22,072 nucleotides of DNA from a virus. Of this stretch, positions 2,903 through 9,635 are shown one piece after another. Under the pieces are notes generated by a model. That model did not search any database and was not told the DNA's origin. It worked only from the letters and a program-made list of their open reading frames with translations. The stretch is taken from positions 1 through 22,072 of the IMG/VR virus record IMGVR_UViG_3300047560_000032; one strand, given 5' to 3'. Made by a program: the position numbers and the translations under genes. Positions within the stretch are counted from its first letter, which is position 1; each line of letters opens with the position of its first letter.

Positions 2903-4207
2903 TCACTCCAAAAGTAGGGCGTTGTTCGAGGTGTATTGCGTCATTATCCAGTTTGTGCCATCAGACACAAGGGTTGCGTTTGCACCGGCCACAGCGGCCA
3001 GGATGGCCGTGGTTGCCGCGCCCCCGGCAAGGGGCACCACGTTGCTGGATGCTGACACAAGGGTTTGAGCCTGATAGTTCTGGAAATGCAGCGTCCGTCC
3101 GCTGTTGGCGCTGGCTGTCGGCAGCGTCACGGTGCAGGACGATCCCGACTTGTTGTTGATCAGCCAGGTTTCCCCAGCAGCCACCGAGAAGTTGGCTGTC
3201 TTGGTGACCGGTGCGCCACCAGCGCCTGAGATTACCGACGCAGGGGTGACGTTTTTCCAATATCCCAAAGCACTGTCGTATTGAATCAGATCATTGTTTG
3301 CCAGCGAGGTGAATTGCACGTTGCTGTCAGTGCCACCCAAAACAGACCCAGGTACGATGCGAATGTTTATTGATCCAGAACTGCCGGACCCCGCGTTTGT
3401 TACCTCACCAACATAGGTTTTTTGATTGGGTGCCGACGGTTTTGTTTTTGTAAAACTGCCAACGTACGCTGGGTTGTAATACAGCGGGTCGCCGTCAGCC
3501 CATGTCTCACCGACGCTGCTACCAGTGGTGTTGAAGCCTCGGAGGTCGCCGCTGATCTGGATCAGACCAAATCCGTTGAGCGCGATTGTCTCAGCGGCCA
3601 CACCGACAATCTGATTAGGATCAGCCAATGCCAGCGGCGTAGGGGCCACGGTAATCACACCAGACGCACCCACTGCACCCGTGTGATAGCAGAGTTGCCC
3701 TTTGGTGATGGCTGACGACGCTTTGGCGTAAACGTACTCAGCTTCACCAACCCGAATTAAAACGCTGGTCGTGGCCTGAATACCCATCGTTGTGCCGCCG
3801 TCCCAGTACATGCTACCCACAGCAGTGGGTACGGGCGATGGGGCTGTGTTGAACGTGAGCCAGGGCACATTGTCCTGCTCAAGCGGGGCCATGCTACCCA
3901 GTTCAGGCTGGCGCAGGGTTTGCAATTCCTGGCGCACAGCATCGAGCGCGGCTTGCAACTCGGATGTACCGGGTGCGGGTTGAGTTTGCAACCCGTTGAT
4001 GTCGATGATGATGTCGGTCAGGTCTTCTTGCTGAGGCGTGGGAGGCCCAAGTTGCAAGTCAGTCAGCGATGTAGTGTTTTGACCACCGCCGACCAACTGA
4101 AACAAGTTTAGGAAAAACCGATACCACTCACGCGAGATCAACCCAGTTCGCGCATCCGTTAGCGGAACCCTGGGAGGTGTGATGTTGGTTAGATCGACGG
4201 TTGCCAT
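2903..4207 (-). CDS. Multi-domain tail/neck structural protein in the tail-needle position
   Basis: A 434-residue protein. Residues 1-40 contain the phage-typical segment TGLISREWYRFFLNLFQL, probably an anchoring helix. Residues about 82-100 (ELQAALDAVRQELQTLRQ) look like a short coiled coil. Residues about 105-290 are beta-rich with an SMYWDGG element. Residues 333-425 form a separable C-terminal module (APVTKTANFS ... DGTNWIM) that is clearly similar to the whole of the protein encoded at 6663-7022. In P22 the gene after gp10 is the trimeric tail needle gp26; this gene holds the same place but shows no gp26 sequence pattern, so a tail tip, needle-like or fibre role is inference. It starts two bases after the gp10-like stop. 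Confidence 0.7.
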   Translation of the reverse strand: MATVDLTNITPPRVPLTDARTGLISREWYRFFLNLFQLVGGGQNTTSLTDLQLGPPTPQQEDLTDIIIDINGLQTQPAPGTSELQAALDAVRQELQTLRQPELGSMAPLEQDNVPWLTFNTAPSPVPTAVGSMYWDGGTTMGIQATTSVLIRVGEAEYVYAKASSAITKGQLCYHTGAVGASGVITVAPTPLALADPNQIVGVAAETIALNGFGLIQISGDLRGFNTTGSSVGETWADGDPLYYNPAYVGSFTKTKPSAPNQKTYVGEVTNAGSGSSGSINIRIVPGSVLGGTDSNVQFTSLANNDLIQYDSALGYWKNVTPASVISGAGGAPVTKTANFSVAAGETWLINNKSGSSCTVTLPTASANSGRTLHFQNYQAQTLVSASSNVVPLAGGAATTAILAAVAGANATLVSDGTNWIMTQYTSNNALLLE

Positions 4208-4209
4208 CG

Positions 4210-5649
4210 TTAAGCATTGGTCGGACTGATGATCAGTTCAGCACCCATGATTGCAGTCTTCACGGGATCGGTCATTGACAACTCGTACACCCTGTCGCGC
4301 AGTTTCATGGTCATGCCAAGACGACGGTAAAACACACGGCGGTAATACTGGCCGATCTTGCCAATTGATGCCGTATGTTCGTTGGACCACGTATGACCGC
4401 CATCGTCTGACCAGCGCAGCATCAGTTCGGGGTCACTGCCTTGCCCAAGGTTCAGGCCAACACCCGACTCCAGATCGATCTGGAGGCTGTGGTGCGCGGT
4501 GCGCTTGAGGTTGTTTTGACCTGTCGGCAACGCCCGCCATGTACGCAGCCACTTTTGAATTTGGCCGTTGTCGGCATAGGTGTCAAGGTCGAACGAATAG
4601 ATGTTGCCGTTCTCGTAGTCGCCCACGATGATCTTGTTGTTGAACGCCATCTGGCAGTTGCTGCGGTGGCGCGTAAACGAGCCATTGTTCCAGCCTGCCC
4701 GCTCATGCCACGCGCCAGTGGCAACGTCGTACACCCAGGTCGTGTTGGCGCTGGGGAAAATGAGCACGTAGAAACTATGGCCGTCTTGCTGGTAGGTGTA
4801 GGCCAGCGAGTCGGTCAGATTGCCGTACTGCTGAATATGCCACTCGACAGCGTGGGTGCTGATGCGCTGGCCCGTGTAGCCGTTGGCGCGGTAGACAATA
4901 CCCTGGCCTCGAGCGTCAGCGCCCAGCCAGAAGATGCCGTTGTCCATCTTGGCAATCGTGTAGGCCGAAATGCAGCCGATCTCGTTGAACGCACCCTGGA
5001 TGCGTTGGAGCGGGAAGTCTTGAGTGCCTGCGTCGTACCAAACCTCGACGCTGTTTGTGCCGTAGACCCAAACCTCGCGGTGGTCAATGATCAAACCTAC
5101 CACGCCGTCAGGAGAACCCTCGGCGCTGGCAAAGTCGAGTGGGTCAACCGACAAACCGTCAAGCAGGCTGGTGATCCAGATTTTCTGGCTGTTCGGTTCG
5201 TTGAACACAAAGTAGCCGTCCAGATAGCCCACGCTCACCGCACCAGGATAGTCTGGGTCGGTGATCTGCGAGAACACGTTGGTCGTGTTGTTGTAGATGT
5301 AGCCAGGGCCGTTGGCAGCAACGAACAACTGGGTGCCGTTGTCGGCCATGCTGACTGGTCCAGTGCCTGCAATCGTGCCCAGCAGCGTGGCACTGTAACT
5401 GGTGTTGATTTTGTACAGGCTGTTGCCCGAGACAACAAACGCCACGGTGTTGTCGGACGAGAAGGCCCACAGCCCTCGGATCGGTCCGTCACCAACGGTG
5501 GCAAGGTTCAGCAGTCCTGGGCAACGTTGCAAGTACGCAGGCTCTTTACCACCCTCGGGAATGACCTCGGGGAAAAGATTGATCATGCGGGCATCCGCAG
5601 CGTTGACGCTGCGAGTCACATACGTCGAGCCAAGGATCGGGGTCTTCAT
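4210..5649 (-). CDS. P22 gp10-like packaged DNA stabilisation (tail hub) protein
   Basis: At 479 residues this is close to the length of P22 gp10 (about 470). Gp10 forms the hexameric hub below gp4, closes the portal channel after packaging and carries tailspikes and needle. Family-like features are the N-terminus with NAADARMINLFPEVIPEGG, YLQRCPGL, and a run of short beta repeats with aromatic and Asp/Gly turns (GLWAF, SGNSLYKI, NGTQLFVAANG, VSVGYLDGYFVFNE) as in a propeller-like fold. It also has the late WYDAGTQDFPLQRIQGA and FWLGADARGQGIVY segments. The start codon overlaps the gp4-like stop by one base (TAATG), as expected for translational coupling of two parts of one complex. No truncation is seen. 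Confidence 0.9.
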   Translation of the reverse strand: MKTPILGSTYVTRSVNAADARMINLFPEVIPEGGKEPAYLQRCPGLLNLATVGDGPIRGLWAFSSDNTVAFVVSGNSLYKINTSYSATLLGTIAGTGPVSMADNGTQLFVAANGPGYIYNNTTNVFSQITDPDYPGAVSVGYLDGYFVFNEPNSQKIWITSLLDGLSVDPLDFASAEGSPDGVVGLIIDHREVWVYGTNSVEVWYDAGTQDFPLQRIQGAFNEIGCISAYTIAKMDNGIFWLGADARGQGIVYRANGYTGQRISTHAVEWHIQQYGNLTDSLAYTYQQDGHSFYVLIFPSANTTWVYDVATGAWHERAGWNNGSFTRHRSNCQMAFNNKIIVGDYENGNIYSFDLDTYADNGQIQKWLRTWRALPTGQNNLKRTAHHSLQIDLESGVGLNLGQGSDPELMLRWSDDGGHTWSNEHTASIGKIGQYYRRVFYRRLGMTMKLRDRVYELSMTDPVKTAIMGAELIISPTNA

Positions 5650-6380
5650 TAGTAGTTACCCGCATAGACGTTGAAGCGCTGGCGCGTTGCGATCAGCGAG
5701 TACGGCATCGACATCACATCGTCAGGGTTGTTGATGCGCTTGAGGTCACGTTTGCTGGTCATAGCGATGCGCTGCACCTGGGGCGATGGCTCTACGCCAA
5801 ACTCGGGCGCGATCTCCATTGCAAGGTTATAGGCAAACGCTCGCAGGTAACCCGGAGGGAACAGAATCTGCGTGGATAGGTTTGCAGGCTGATCCAACTG
5901 TTGCACACTGATGAAGTGGAACTCCAGCAGGCGCGTGGGGCGCGGATAGATGTAAATGTCGATGTCGGGATAGGTCATGTTGACGAACATGACTTGGGGG
6001 TACGTGGATGTCACGGTCTTGACCGCGATGCCGTCGTACTGTTGCTGATTGATCAGCTTGATGCCGTAGGACACATTGGTCTGCGGATCACGGAAATAGG
6101 TGGCATCGTCAACCAGAATAGGGCGCTCGGCAGTACCATTCAAGCGCACCAGCGATCCGGTGGGGCCAAGGGTTGCGTTGATCTGGTCAACCGGCCAGTT
6201 GCAAATTTGGTCGATGGTTGAGAAGACGGACAGGCGCTCAGTGTTCCATGACTCAATCATCTGATTGAGCGCCATCAGGCAGTCTTGAGACACGGCTGCG
6301 GAAGGCGTTTCACCTTCGGCCAGCACACCTAGCAGCCGCAACGCTCGATTGATCTGTTCGCCTGCGGTGTAGGTAGCCAT
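5649..6380 (-). CDS. P22 gp4-like head completion / tail accessory protein
   Basis: A 243-residue protein matching the pattern of P22 gp4, the adaptor that binds under the portal ring and stabilises packaged DNA. The N-terminal helices carry INRALRLLGVLAEGETPSA and LMALNQMIESWNTERLSVF, the typical gp4-family signature. Further on are LPPGYLRA-like FPPGYLRAFAYNLAMEIAPEFG at about 184-205 and KRDLKRIN. It is longer than P22 gp4 itself (166 residues), as in many gp4-like proteins of environmental phages. A strong AAGGAG site precedes the ATG by 7 bases. It starts one base after the stop of 6382-6630 and overlaps the gp10-like start by one base. The order coat, gp4, gp10 is the same as in P22. 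Confidence 0.88.
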   Translation of the reverse strand: MATYTAGEQINRALRLLGVLAEGETPSAAVSQDCLMALNQMIESWNTERLSVFSTIDQICNWPVDQINATLGPTGSLVRLNGTAERPILVDDATYFRDPQTNVSYGIKLINQQQYDGIAVKTVTSTYPQVMFVNMTYPDIDIYIYPRPTRLLEFHFISVQQLDQPANLSTQILFPPGYLRAFAYNLAMEIAPEFGVEPSPQVQRIAMTSKRDLKRINNPDDVMSMPYSLIATRQRFNVYAGNY

Positions 6381-6381
6381 G

Positions 6382-6630
6382 TCACTCTCCTTCGTCTGTC
6401 TGCGGTGCCAAAAAGTCGGGCACTGGGGTTTCTACCGATTCCTCGGCTTTCTTGCGGCGACCGCGCCGCGCAATCGGAGCCACATCGGCTTCCGAGGCCA
6501 CTTCTTCGACAGTCGAAGGCGTGTCAGGATTGTAGCGTGTCCAGCCGTTTTGTTCATCTGCTTCGGCTTCCATGTCGAGCGAGGCGACCTTGGTGCCGTG
6601 AACCGGGTGTTCGAGGTAGATTATGGGCAT
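6382..6630 (-). CDS. Small charged phage head-region protein
   Basis: An 82-residue hypothetical protein. The N-terminus (MPIIYLEHPVHGTKVA) followed by an acidic stretch and NGWTRYNP, then a basic RRGRRKK patch and acidic tail, is a pattern I recall from small proteins between coat and gp4-like genes of many phages. No function is known to me. The ATG lies only six bases after the stem of the UUCG-loop hairpin at 6637-6658 and has no Shine-Dalgarno site. The conserved-looking N-terminus nevertheless supports this start. Confidence 0.7.
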   Translation of the reverse strand: MPIIYLEHPVHGTKVASLDMEAEADEQNGWTRYNPDTPSTVEEVASEADVAPIARRGRRKKAEESVETPVPDFLAPQTDEGE

Positions 6631-6636
6631 GTTAAG

Positions 6637-6658
6637 AAACGGGGCCGAAGCCCCGTTT
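6637..6658 (-). terminator. Intrinsic terminator-like hairpin, UUCG loop (third copy in transcription order)
   Basis: On the minus strand this reads AAACGGGGC-TTCG-GCCCCGTTT, a perfect 9-base stem closed by the very stable C(UUCG)G tetraloop, then CTTAAC. The T-run is short (GTTTCTT), so termination may be partial. It lies right after the 6663-7022 gene and six bases before the next start codon. The same core occurs at 7042-7055 and 7510-7523. Confidence 0.75.
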
Positions 6659-6662
6659 GGTT

Positions 6663-7022
6663 TTAGCCAGCAGCCATGATGACCCAGTTCGTGCCATCTT
6701 CACAAACCAGAGTGGCCCACTTGCCAGCAGTAGCAGCCAGAATGGCTGTGCCTGCGGTAGCAGAGGCCAACGGTTTGACGTTGGACGAAGCCGAGATCAC
6801 TGTGTAAGTGCCGGACAGGTTTTTCAAAGTGACGGTACGACCGATGTAGTCGGAACCGCTGGGCAACGTCACAGAGACATTGGCAGCAGAGCCGTTGCAC
6901 ACCACGTAGTTGTCTGAATCACCGAGGCTAAAACTAGCAGTTTTAGTCACAGGTGCGTTCAAATAAAACGCGGTCAGCGCAGGATCGGAGTACGCAACAC
7001 CGACGGGTTTATTGTTTGCCAT
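6663..7022 (-). CDS. Small putative capsid-surface or tail protein, paralogous to the C-terminus of 2903-4207
   Basis: A 119-residue protein. I chose the ATG at 7022 (MANNKPVGVAYSD) over an upstream in-frame ATG because AAAGGA lies 8 bases before it and because the upstream extension would read through the terminator hairpin. Residues 23-117 align by eye with residues 332-424 of the 434-residue tail protein: shared words are APVTKTA, VTLP, GRT, SASSNV, TAILAA, ATLV and DGTNW. It is beta-rich, without Cys pairs or membrane segments. It has its own coat-like leader and its own terminator-like hairpin, so it is probably made in high amounts. A decoration protein is the best guess, and a fibre or domain-donor role is an alternative. 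Confidence 0.75.
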   Translation of the reverse strand: MANNKPVGVAYSDPALTAFYLNAPVTKTASFSLGDSDNYVVCNGSAANVSVTLPSGSDYIGRTVTLKNLSGTYTVISASSNVKPLASATAGTAILAATAGKWATLVCEDGTNWVIMAAG

Positions 7023-7037
7023 GATGCGTCCTTTCAA
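7017..7037 (-). promoter_or_regulatory. Ribosome binding leader, copy 3 of a shared element
   Basis: The minus strand reads TTTGAAAGGACGCATCATGG. AAAGGA is the ribosome site, 8 bases before ATG. It matches the leaders of the coat gene and the 7064-7477 gene almost base for base. Confidence 0.7.
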
Positions 7038-7056
7038 AATAGGGGCCGAAGCCCCC
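7034..7056 (-). terminator. Intrinsic terminator-like hairpin, UUCG loop (second copy)
   Basis: The minus strand reads GGGGGC-TTCG-GCCCC followed by TATTTTG. The five-base GGGGC/GCCCC stem lies at 7042-7055. It falls between the stop of 7064-7477 and the start of the next gene, and its T-tract runs into the TTTGAAAGGA leader, so terminator and ribosome site touch each other. Confidence 0.7.
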
Positions 7057-7063
7057 ATTAAAT

Positions 7064-7477
7064 TTAAGCAACGCGATACAGCGACCAAGCACCGTCGCCG
7101 GTTTTACGGGCGCGGAACAATTGGGCGGTACCAGCGGTAGCCACGACGGTCATCAGACCAACCAACGTCCAGCCGGTGCCAGCAACCAGCGTAATCACGC
7201 CAGAACTAGAACCGTCCACGTTGACAACCGACAGATCAAACGACACGCCAGCTTTGGTAGCCGAGGGCAGTGCAGCTTCAAGATCGGCCACGGTGGGCAA
7301 CGTGTAGCTGGCAGCAGACGTACCAGGCGAACCCAGCAGAATGTTGGACAGCACTTGCGCGGCGGTCAAAGTGGCCGTAGCGGTTGCGGTTGCGGGAGCC
7401 GGAATGACCCGGAACGATGCTTCATTAAGGTTGCCATCACCGAGTTGATAGCCGCCAGAACCATTAGGGAGAGCCAT
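7064..7477 (-). CDS. Small putative capsid decoration protein downstream of coat
   Basis: A 137-residue, Ala/Thr/Gly-rich beta protein. The N-terminus MALPNGSGGYQLGDGN, the central SYTLPTVADLEAALP, and the C-terminus AGTGWTLVGLMTV ... RARKTGDGAWSLYRVA are patterns I recall from small proteins directly after P22-type coat genes in environmental phages. The position between two UUCG hairpins, directly behind coat and with a coat-like leader (TTTTGAAAGGA), suggests a stoichiometric virion protein. A trimeric or Ig-like decoration protein is inference, as no named family can be given with confidence. Confidence 0.75.
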   Translation of the reverse strand: MALPNGSGGYQLGDGNLNEASFRVIPAPATATATATLTAAQVLSNILLGSPGTSAASYTLPTVADLEAALPSATKAGVSFDLSVVNVDGSSSGVITLVAGTGWTLVGLMTVVATAGTAQLFRARKTGDGAWSLYRVA

Positions 7478-7494
7478 GATAAATTCCTTTCAAA
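7472..7494 (-). promoter_or_regulatory. Ribosome binding leader, copy 2 of a shared element
   Basis: The minus strand reads TTTTGAAAGGA, then ATTTATCATGGC. The AAAGGA site lies 8 bases before the ATG at 7477, the same arrangement as in front of the coat gene and the 6663-7022 gene. Confidence 0.7.
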
Positions 7495-7498
7495 ATTA

Positions 7499-7527
7499 AG
7501 ACGTTGAAAGGGGCCGAAGCCCCGTTT
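7499..7527 (-). terminator. Intrinsic terminator-like hairpin after the coat gene, UUCG loop (first copy)
   Basis: The minus strand reads AAACGGGGC-TTCG-GCCCCTTTCAACG. The GGGGC/GCCCC stem is at 7510-7523 and can be extended by AAA/TTT with a one-base bulge. Only a short T-run follows, so it may end part of the transcripts and protect the coat mRNA 3' end. Confidence 0.7.
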
Positions 7528-7531
7528 CAGA

Positions 7532-8734
7532 TCAGCCCCACAAACGGCAAGCCATTTGCGGACGAATGACGCTGTAACCGTACAGAACGTCAATACGGCA
7601 AGGCATCCGGTCGTTGTTGATATCGTACTGGCGAACCACACGCATGGAGATGCCGTTGTGGACAGCGCGAGCGGCCATATCGACACCCTGGGGCAGCAAC
7701 AAGTCAGCCGTAGCAAACGTGATTGCGTCCTTGTGGTAGACCAAGTTCTGAGCATAGGCGCTGGCAGAAGAACCGAGCATGGTCACGACGGCAGAAGCCT
7801 GTGGGAATGCGTCGATGGTAGCCAGGGCTTGATCAGCGGTGTACATCGCGGGGCTGACAGTCAGCGTAGCGGTGGACGAGCCAGAAGCGGCAGCGGTCAC
7901 CACGAACTGCTGGAGCGAACCGGTGGACTCGCGGGTCTGCGGGTTCACTGCGTACACACCGGCCACGGTAAACACATCGCCCACGTTCCAGGTTTTGCTG
8001 GAGCCGGTGAAGCTGATGCCCAGGGTCGTAGAACCTTGGGTAGACACGGTACTGGTCACAGTGATGCCAGTGCCCCACGAGCCAGTGGTGTGCTGCTTGA
8101 TCGACTGAGACATGTTGATCTCGTCAAAGCCCAACACGCCCATGCCCATCATGCCGTTCTTGAACTGGCGGCTGATGGTGTCGGTGGGGTTGAACAGACC
8201 TTTCATGCCTTCGACCAAACCAGCGTTAGCGGCAGGGTTGACGGTGGCATAACGGGGCGACATGACAGCAGCGGCTTCGTTCAGTTTCTGCTGCGCTTGC
8301 AACAGAACCAAAGAAGTAGCGGGAGTCGTGCCGGGGGTGCCCACGGACTGATAGATGCTCTTGAAGCTGTTTGCCACATCAGCGTCGATGGACGATGCCA
8401 ACTGGCTGATACGAGGCTTCAACACACGCTCTGCGAAGTCGTCCAATTGCATGGTCAATTCAGCAGAGGTGAAGTTCACGCCGATGTGCTTCTGGCTGGA
8501 AACAGTCAGAGTGGTGTACTGTTCGTTGTCGTCCTGAACTTGCAGAGCGGCACCGTCAGTCACCAAAGCGCGGTCGGGCAAACGGATACGGAGGGTCGAA
8601 CCAATCTTGGCACCTTCGACAGCGAAGCTGTCGTCGTACTGACGGTTCACGTTGCGGGTGAGCACCAGATTGTTCTCGAGGATTTCGAGAGCCTTTCGGG
8701 TGATCATGTCAATGGTAAGAATACTATTCGCCAT
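7532..8734 (-). CDS. Major capsid protein, P22 coat (gp5) family, HK97 fold
   Basis: A 400-residue coat protein (P22 gp5 has 430). Family-like features: N-terminal MITRKALEILENNLVLTRNVNRQYD, the GAKIGSTLRIRLPDR strand, and SAELTMQLDDFAERVLKPRISQLASSID (spine helix region). The insertion domain (I-domain, telokin-like) falls at about 215-300, with NVGDVFTVAGVYAVNPQTRE and LQQFVVTAAASG as typical for P22-like coats. The C-terminus has GYSVIRPQMACRLWG. The ATG at 8734 has AAAGGA 11 bases upstream in the shared leader TTTGAAAGGACTCGCATC. The scaffold gene lies directly upstream and the first UUCG hairpin directly downstream. The protein builds the icosahedral shell with the scaffold as internal template. 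Confidence 0.93.
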   Translation of the reverse strand: MANSILTIDMITRKALEILENNLVLTRNVNRQYDDSFAVEGAKIGSTLRIRLPDRALVTDGAALQVQDDNEQYTTLTVSSQKHIGVNFTSAELTMQLDDFAERVLKPRISQLASSIDADVANSFKSIYQSVGTPGTTPATSLVLLQAQQKLNEAAAVMSPRYATVNPAANAGLVEGMKGLFNPTDTISRQFKNGMMGMGVLGFDEINMSQSIKQHTTGSWGTGITVTSTVSTQGSTTLGISFTGSSKTWNVGDVFTVAGVYAVNPQTRESTGSLQQFVVTAAASGSSTATLTVSPAMYTADQALATIDAFPQASAVVTMLGSSASAYAQNLVYHKDAITFATADLLLPQGVDMAARAVHNGISMRVVRQYDINNDRMPCRIDVLYGYSVIRPQMACRLWG

Positions 8735-8755: not shown

Positions 8756-9559
8756 TTAGCGGTTCATCTGTGCTTGCATCTTCCGCAACTGGCGGGCGCG
8801 TTCAGCTTCAATCCATTCCGACGTACTCATGGCCTTCACAGAGCGAGGGTCAGTTGTGTCGTAGGACGGGTTACCGCTGGTTCGTGCTGTTACAGGTGTG
8901 ATAGGTGCTGGCGCAGACGTTGTGGGTTTGACAACGGGGTTGCTGCCAAGTTTGGCCTCAATTTTCCCGATCTCTCTTGCCTGCAAAATAGGGGACAAAC
9001 GAGAAATGCGGTCCGCTTCTTTCGGATTCGATCCAAACCAGTAGGCCAGATCGGGTCCAATTTCAGAAGCCTGAATCGCTTCGGCCATCGAGTCGGTGAT
9101 TCTGACGCTGGGGTTGTAGGCGACTTGTTCAAAGTCATCGTACTTGTCCCGTGCGGCTTCTTCACGTTCTTGATACGCGGCTTGCGTCGCAGCCTGTTGC
9201 TTCTGGCGTTCACGAATCTCGAGAAGCTGATGGGCCTTGCGCTCGGCCAATGCGTCAGCATAGGCGTCGTCAGACTCAAAAGCACTGCGATCCAGATCGC
9301 CTTTGGGCATCGACTGCGCGGTTTGCACTTCTGCCAACCGTGCTTGCTGCTCCCGTTCCCATTTGCGCTGTTCTCTTGCGAGGCGCTTGCCGATGGCAGC
9401 ATCGAGTTCTTCCTGGGTGAATGTCTTCGTCGCAGGTTGTTGCTCGGGCTGATTCTCAGCTACTTCCGGCGCATTTTGTGCAATATCCGTGGTGGCCGTC
9501 ACCTCGGTTGCTGGCGCGGAGTCTACTTCCGCTAAGGCTTGTTGGACTTCTTCAGTCAT
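8756..9559 (-). CDS. Capsid scaffolding protein
   Basis: A 267-residue, highly charged, Gln/Glu/Ala-rich protein directly upstream of coat, the standard place for a scaffold. The first 45 residues are acidic and disordered. Residues about 46-75 (TFTQEELDAAIGKRLAREQRKWE) match a signature common at the start of the helical part of phage scaffolds, followed by long amphipathic helices to about 150. A Pro/Thr linker at about 205-230 precedes a C-terminal amphipathic basic helix (STSEWIEAERARQLRKMQ), which fits the coat-binding helix of scaffolds. No protease motif is seen. The ATG at 9559 has only a weak ribosome site. Upstream lies the promoter at 9608-9635, so this gene is probably the first of a coat transcript. 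Confidence 0.85.
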   Translation of the reverse strand: MTEEVQQALAEVDSAPATEVTATTDIAQNAPEVAENQPEQQPATKTFTQEELDAAIGKRLAREQRKWEREQQARLAEVQTAQSMPKGDLDRSAFESDDAYADALAERKAHQLLEIRERQKQQAATQAAYQEREEAARDKYDDFEQVAYNPSVRITDSMAEAIQASEIGPDLAYWFGSNPKEADRISRLSPILQAREIGKIEAKLGSNPVVKPTTSAPAPITPVTARTSGNPSYDTTDPRSVKAMSTSEWIEAERARQLRKMQAQMNR

Positions 9560-9565
9560 TTTGTC

Positions 9566-9579
9566 GATTCTTTAGAATC
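9566..9579. repeat. Short inverted repeat in the scaffold 5' leader
   Basis: GATTCTTTAGAATC: six-base arms around two bases, 7 bases upstream of the scaffold ATG. It could pair in the mRNA near the ribosome site or bind a dimeric protein. No family assignment is possible. Confidence 0.4.
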
Positions 9580-9587
9580 CCTGGTCA

Positions 9588-9598
9588 ACTGGGCCAGT
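9588..9598. repeat. 11-base palindrome just downstream of the predicted start site
   Basis: ACTGGGCCAGT, with five-base arms around one base. It would lie at about +3 to +13 of the transcript from the promoter at 9608-9635, an operator-like place. Confidence 0.4.
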
Positions 9599-9607
9599 AC
9601 AGGTTTT

Positions 9608-9635
9608 ATCTTACACCCAGTGGGCTGGGTGTCAA
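9608..9635 (-). promoter_or_regulatory. Sigma70-like promoter for scaffold and coat genes
   Basis: On the minus strand a perfect -35 TTGACA (9630-9635) is followed after 16 bases by TAAGAT (9608-9613, four of six matches to TATAAT). The predicted start is near 9601, giving a leader of about 41 bases before the scaffold ATG. It lies in the longest non-coding gap between complete genes of the window (79 bases), at the border between the fibre genes and the capsid genes. A host sigma70-type holoenzyme is inferred. Confidence 0.6.
9613..9632. repeat. Inverted repeat inside the promoter spacer
   Basis: ACACCCAG-TGGG-CTGGGTGT: perfect eight-base arms around four bases, filling the space between -35 and -10 and touching both. 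It could be an operator for a dimeric regulator. As RNA it would be a strong hairpin, but no U-run follows on the minus strand, so a terminator for the upstream fibre gene is less likely. Confidence 0.55.

Follow-up and report, generated by a model that had tools for sequence, protein, structure and literature searches.

Serial UUCG-capped hairpins behind the capsid genes of a P22-type freshwater phage and a covarying pseudoknot in its scaffold leader

The head module and its three hairpins

A P22-type head module is encoded on the minus strand of the window, which is a complete viral contig of 22,072 bases from a bacterial virus from freshwater. The module holds the genes for the portal, scaffold and coat proteins, several small genes, and the genes for head-tail adaptor Ad3 and head closure protein Hc3. 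The head scaffolding gene (8756..9559, phrog_8865) is followed by the gene for the P22-type major coat protein (7532..8734; PF11651, phrog_283), a 137-amino acid (aa) gene (7064..7477) and a 119-aa gene (6663..7022). Next comes an 82-aa gene without a Shine-Dalgarno (SD) sequence (6382..6630), which has the same map position as orf69 of P22, and then the neck genes Ad3 (5649..6380) and Hc3 (4210..5649).

The 137-aa product is plausibly a decoration or spike protein. Its AlphaFold2 model (pLDDT 85) has as its top PDB fold match the capsid spike of Pseudomonas phage Pa223 (9ny6_C, E 1.3e-4), in agreement with the decoration role that the initial annotation had given it. The 119-aa product is an accessory protein, proposed to be a second decoration protein; it has no family match, with no sequence match in Pfam, PHROG or PDB, and its AlphaFold model is poor. 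It shares a common domain with part of a 434-aa protein encoded downstream on the same strand (2903-4207): a search with the 434-aa protein hits, at 53%, the region of the 119-aa gene in one relative (L005).

The same hairpin lies behind three consecutive genes. Its core, GGGGC-UUCG-GCCCC (GGGGCTTCGGCCCC), occurs exactly three times in the window, always on the minus strand (6641-6654, 7042-7055 and 7510-7523), and no further copy is found in the 22,072 bases even with two mismatches allowed. Dinucleotide shuffles give a mean chance expectation of 0.13 copies for this 14-mer, and none of 100 shuffles reaches three. The earlier observation that this hairpin follows three genes in a row and occurs nowhere else in the window therefore stands. 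Each copy has its UUCG on the coding (minus) strand and lies 3' of a stop codon, so that the hairpins begin a few nucleotides past the ends of the coat, 137-aa and 119-aa genes. The loop is of the C(UUCG)G type with a closing C-G pair on the RNA strand, as in cUUCGg tetraloops, and all three are GC-rich hairpins on the transcribed strand, as in intrinsic terminators. All three gaps between the genes fold more stably than their shuffles (z of -2.2, -2.3 and -3.7), with hairpin 3 the strongest.

Hairpin 1, 3' of the coat gene (7506..7528), extends its core by outer GAAA/UUUC pairs with a bulged C and runs into the tail UUUCAACG. Hairpin 2, 3' of the 137-aa gene (7038..7059), has 9 bp, and its tail, UAUUUU, merges into GAAAGGA, the SD of the gene that follows. 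Hairpin 3, 3' of the 119-aa gene (6637..6658), is a perfect 9-bp stem (AAACGGGGC-UUCG-GCCCCGUUU) that ends 6 nt 5' of the ATG of the 82-aa gene. The T-runs had been described as short, and they are so at all three sites (UUUCAACG, UAUUUUGAAAGG and GUUUCUUAAC, the GUUU of the last lying within the stem). Rfam covariance models found no match at E<=1 in the window, hairpins and scaffold leader included, and gave only sub-gathering matches in the relatives, located elsewhere.

Conservation of position and of RNA structure

Hairpins recur at the same places in related phages, where the initial annotation had proposed to look for them. We scanned every gene end in the module of 80 coat-gene relatives from viral contigs (among the matches listed) and of the complete genomes DSL-LC05 and ctNMl277, counting a strong hairpin when it lay within 45 nt of the stop codon. 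Across about 65 homologous loci, which were dereplicated at most by exact sequence and are thus not phylogenetically independent, a hairpin is found behind the coat gene in 54/67, behind the gene after it in 54/63 and behind the third gene in 41/62. The corresponding counts for the other module genes are 0/74 (scaffold), 3/65 (Ad3), 0/41 (Hc3) and 1/13 (portal). The six positions upstream of the hairpin trio and the five downstream of it have 0-2 hairpins each, and the background in random coding windows is 52/1956. Hairpin 1 is missing in about a fifth of relatives.

The number of hairpins follows the number of genes. In 45 of 66 loci, there is one more hairpin than there are genes between the coat and 82-aa genes, so that each gene in this interval tends to have its own hairpin. 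DSL-LC05 has one gene in the interval and two hairpins, and P22 has no gene there and one hairpin. The two hairpins behind the capsid genes of DSL-LC05 are also the only UUCG hairpins in its complete 37.6-kb genome.

Conservation extends to a separate clade of more distant phages (L241-L293). The query for these was the coat of Shewanella phage X14, at about 33% identity to the window coat; a few loci were added via the ctkAd229 coat. A post-coat hairpin is present in 32 of their 36 distinct loci, compared with 2.9% of shuffles, and often has a canonical A-tract and U-tract (AAA...UUUUU). Most of the distant isolates examined, among them PAE2, PBR31, P26218, VvAW1, BA3 and EBPR1, have unrelated stems 3' of the coat gene. 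In other viral contigs that contain the 14-mer, among the matches listed, 84 of 128 copies lie no more than 80 nt past a sense stop codon, with U-rich sequence after them.

The coat family has at least 600 matches in viral contigs (IMG/VR) and few cultured members; it seems to represent a P22-type phage group that is large and abundant. Coat relatives L206-L222 come from contigs whose bins are labelled Rhodoferax, Oxalobacteraceae, Burkholderiales and others, as well as from the isolate Rhizorhabdus histidinilytica UM2. This suggests that the hosts of the family are mainly proteobacterial.

Selection on these elements acts on the RNA. Among 191 post-gene hairpins, the loop read on the mRNA strand is UUCG in 129 and CGAA in none, and it is this asymmetry that argues for the RNA as the target. 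Stem sequences are diverse in the relatives (GGGGC, CGCCC, CCCAC, CCCGC, GCCCC and others). Among hairpins whose loop has four bases, every distinct sequence nonetheless keeps standard pairs at the inner five positions, compared with about half of shuffled sequences at the most variable pairs. The stem changes are thus compensatory: sequences differ and pairing is kept. A DNA-level palindrome or recombination site was also considered and was rejected because of the strand bias.

Identity of the three cores does not point to a shared origin by copying. Duplication of one unit had been put forward for the identical cores in the window, and this proposal is not supported: of the 41 relatives with three hairpins, 24 carry three different cores and 9 carry identical ones, and duplication was rejected on the mostly different cores inside single genomes. 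Core identity is 0.27 within a genome and 0.20 between genomes. The commonest core, GGGGCUUCGGCCCC, occurs also in the unrelated phage phiX174.

A further possibility is that the short identical hairpins are recombination joints that supply the homology through which decoration-gene cassettes are exchanged and have no function as RNA. One relative (L004, 2146-2550, compared with window 7064-7477) has a coat protein 99% identical to that of the window and a 137-aa protein only 43-44% identical, so a decoration-gene cassette has been swapped in the interval from hairpin 1 to hairpin 2. Nevertheless, we regard joints as very improbable, since the hairpins keep a strict strand orientation, the compensatory changes destroy homology, and the cores differ inside one genome in most relatives.

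Termination, stabilization and translation

The sequences that follow the stems are consistent with partial termination at two of the three sites. Among the relatives, the first six bases after the stem contain on average 3.4, 4.4 and 2.8 U at sites 1, 2 and 3, compared with 1.5 after coding hairpins. We also used a terminator score of the d'Aubenton-Carafa type, calibrated on E. coli, which may not be the host; by this score, d exceeds 0 in 76% of distinct hairpins at site 1, 93% at site 2 and 46% at site 3, whereas for coding hairpins the figure is 6%. In the window itself, the U-tracts are short, and sites 1 and 2 score 8.8 and 9.2; on the same scale, phiX174 TJ scores 4.0, the P22 hairpin 26 and T7 Tphi 36. 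These values fit sites 1 and 2 as predicted weak terminators. Window hairpin 3 scores as a non-terminator on this E. coli-calibrated scale (d = -0.4), and by its sequence looks more like a stabilizer.

Comparable elements are known from other phages. T7 Tphi lies directly after capsid gene 10, as hairpin 1 lies 3' of the window coat gene, and its termination is incomplete; it differs in acting on T7 RNA polymerase and in having a longer stem and a U6 tail. CUUCGG hairpins were reportedly found in T4 mRNAs (Tuerk et al. 1988). Like those of the window, the T4 hairpins are said to be C(UUCG)G-capped stems between genes, but not specifically after capsid genes. P22 has an annotated stem_loop (6102-6119) of sequence AGGGGC-UGCG-GCCCCUUU after its coat gene 5, that is, behind a homologous coat gene and at the same position as hairpin 1, which likewise lies directly 3' of a P22-type coat gene. 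The P22 GenBank record notes that the location of this stem_loop is similar to those in HK97 and lambda. P22 differs from the window in having one hairpin only, in lacking decoration genes in the interval from coat to orf69, and in having an SD for orf69. Phage L has a putative terminator within a late operon with a single promoter, for which partial termination was suggested and the role stated as not known; unlike in the window, this is a single predicted terminator and not one of a series (PMC8022706).

The closest parallel in sequence comes from phiX174, an unrelated ssDNA phage. Its J-F gap, which contains terminator TJ, holds the identical 14-mer GGGGCTTCGGCCCC. Four leaky terminators (TJ, TF, TG and TH) follow successive virion genes in phiX174, which resembles the arrangement in the window, although only TJ has the shared stem and TF, TG and TH differ. 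Published values for TJ include an efficiency of 40-60% and an RNA-seq refit with near-zero termination (PMC11527146). Thus, an identical core does not guarantee termination. A separate study found 68% transcript read-through of TJ at 37 C and faster decay of upstream mRNA when the element is disrupted (PMC3335065). Our literature search on intercistronic UUCG hairpins and capsid genes, and on post-capsid stem-loops in related phages, found nothing direct. Leaky terminators behind capsid genes are already known from phiX174, T7 and P22, and the arrangement described here is an unusually elaborate, serial and strongly conserved one.

Taken together, we consider it likely, with a probability of roughly three in four, that the three hairpins act inside the operon as leaky, rho-independent terminators and double as stabilizers of mRNA 3' ends. 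The initial annotation had called each probably a leaky terminator or 3' stabilizer, and this is well supported by their position, their coding-strand orientation, the compensatory stem changes, the enrichment of U-tracts in relatives and the identical hairpin of phiX174. Termination, stabilization and stepped protein amounts are what we infer from these sequence features.

An unlikely alternative is that the hairpins are purely 3' stabilizers or processing barriers, at which polymerase would not stop and 3' exonucleases, working inward from downstream ends, would halt, so that the upstream segments last longer. This would account for tails at sites 1 and 3 that, in the window's clade, often have no U-run (e.g., CCCCCAUUGACGAC and CCCCUAUACACCC); moreover, UUCG caps are extra stable, and phiX174 TJ stabilizes too. 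A pure stabilizer, however, needs neither the U enrichment directly past the stem, which is seen at site 2 and, for site 1, in many clades, nor the canonical AAA...UUUUU tails present in the distant clade. Cleavage by RNase III, which phages such as T7 use to cut their polycistronic mRNAs, has next to no probability here, because the enzyme requires a stem of roughly 20 bp and those of the hairpins, at 5-9 bp, are far shorter.

If the hairpins are leaky terminators with a stabilizing role, RNA polymerase would probably enter the scaffold-coat unit at a promoter-like site that lies just 5' of the scaffold gene. Fractions of the polymerase would then stop after the coat gene, after the first decoration gene and after the second. 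The terminated RNAs would end in a UUCG-capped GC stem that is hard for 3' exonucleases to open. As a result, scaffold/coat and decoration messages would exceed those of the low-copy head-completion genes (the 82-aa protein, Ad3 and Hc3). Most likely, the message would be thinned stepwise so that the parts come in the right proportions.

Hairpin 3 differs in architecture from hairpins 1 and 2, since it sits where the following gene, which has no SD, begins. It occupies the expected ribosome-binding site of the 82-aa gene, with 6 nt to the ATG and no SD between. In relatives, it lies 0-22 nt (often 6-8 or 15-16 nt) before the conserved start codon of this gene, which is well supported by a conserved N-terminus. 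The median SD:anti-SD energy over homologues is -2.0 kcal/mol for the 82-aa gene, compared with -5.9 for the 137-aa gene and -6.8 for Ad3, and the proportions at or below -4.5 are 14%, 100% and 97%, respectively. No SD motif is present in 40 of 46 gaps before the 82-aa gene, and the distance from stop to start has a median of 17 nt outside hairpin 3. This packing of stop codon, hairpin and start codon suggests coupled reinitiation or throttled initiation of the 82-aa gene. The same features could mean that hairpin 3, and possibly the others, act mainly in translation, standing in place of the 82-aa SD and either throttling initiation or bridging stop and start. We find this improbable as a general account, as it cannot cover site 1, where a full SD lies a median of 28 nt downstream of the hairpin in 48/48 gaps checked, or site 2, where the window has an SD too.

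The scaffold leader and control of the capsid operon

The leader of the scaffold gene contains a conserved, covarying H-type pseudoknot. This structure (9581..9602, minus strand; CUG-UA-CUGG-CC-CAG-UUGA-CCAG) runs from stem 1 through UA to the 5' arm of stem 2, the 3' arm of stem 1 and the 3' arm of stem 2. It is followed by a short hairpin at the position of the scaffold SD (9566..9579; GAUUC-UAAA-GAAUC) and then by the start codon. Directly upstream of the leader is the promoter-like site TTGACA-N16-TAAGAT (9608..9635, minus strand), whose spacer contains a perfect, operator-like 8-bp inverted repeat (ACACCCAG-CCCA-CTGGGTGT). About one relative in three also has a promoter-like pair; the 8-bp repeat is shared by the nearest relative alone.

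The leader (9566-9602) is present in nearly all relatives, with homologues in L005-L082, L204 and L241-L293. A pseudoknot finder matches 46 of 58 distinct leaders, compared with a mean of 1.6 for shuffled leaders, and 25 of 379 segments before other genes; by eye, most of the 12 leaders without a match look like small indel variants. When 55 leaders are aligned, pairing holds in 90.3% of cells, and 14 of the 15 pairs are changed on both sides (140 cells vs. 41 shuffled). The covariation score of the leader is 0.477, compared with 0.179 for shuffled sequences and 0.03-0.12 for slid frames.

The separate clade also has the pseudoknot. A first pass found it in 22/38 leaders, compared with 11% of shuffles. 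With an anchored finder it was found in 27/38, compared with 4% of shuffles, in a test that was not fully blind, as the choice of anchors and of the widened search region drew on the first clade and on the first pass over the second. The pseudoknots of this clade comprise 16 different stem-1 and 11 different stem-2 sequences.

The scaffolding protein of P22 represses its own synthesis after transcription, as is known genetically, and this makes the scaffold leader a natural candidate for the RNA target of such autoregulation. To our knowledge, no RNA site has been defined for it in P22. The pseudoknot and SD hairpin of the scaffold leader are more novel than the hairpins behind the capsid genes. 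Tentatively, the P22-type capsid operon may be RNA-controlled at both ends. The leader pseudoknot and SD hairpin would be a target for free scaffolding protein, or another capsid-state signal, that regulates scaffold and coat translation, and the serial hairpins would set the steps in decoration and neck transcripts; hairpin 3 would, in addition, control initiation at the SD-less 82-aa gene.

The hairpins are conserved in structure in a large freshwater group and in a distant clade, and occur after each presumed abundant capsid gene and almost no other, which argues for a real dosage function. Terminators in the late operons of P22-type phages had previously been noted, with roles not known (PMC8022706), and the dosage function proposed here would be testable with reporters. 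The covarying pseudoknot of the scaffold leader, in turn, offers a concrete candidate RNA target for the autoregulation of the scaffolding protein.
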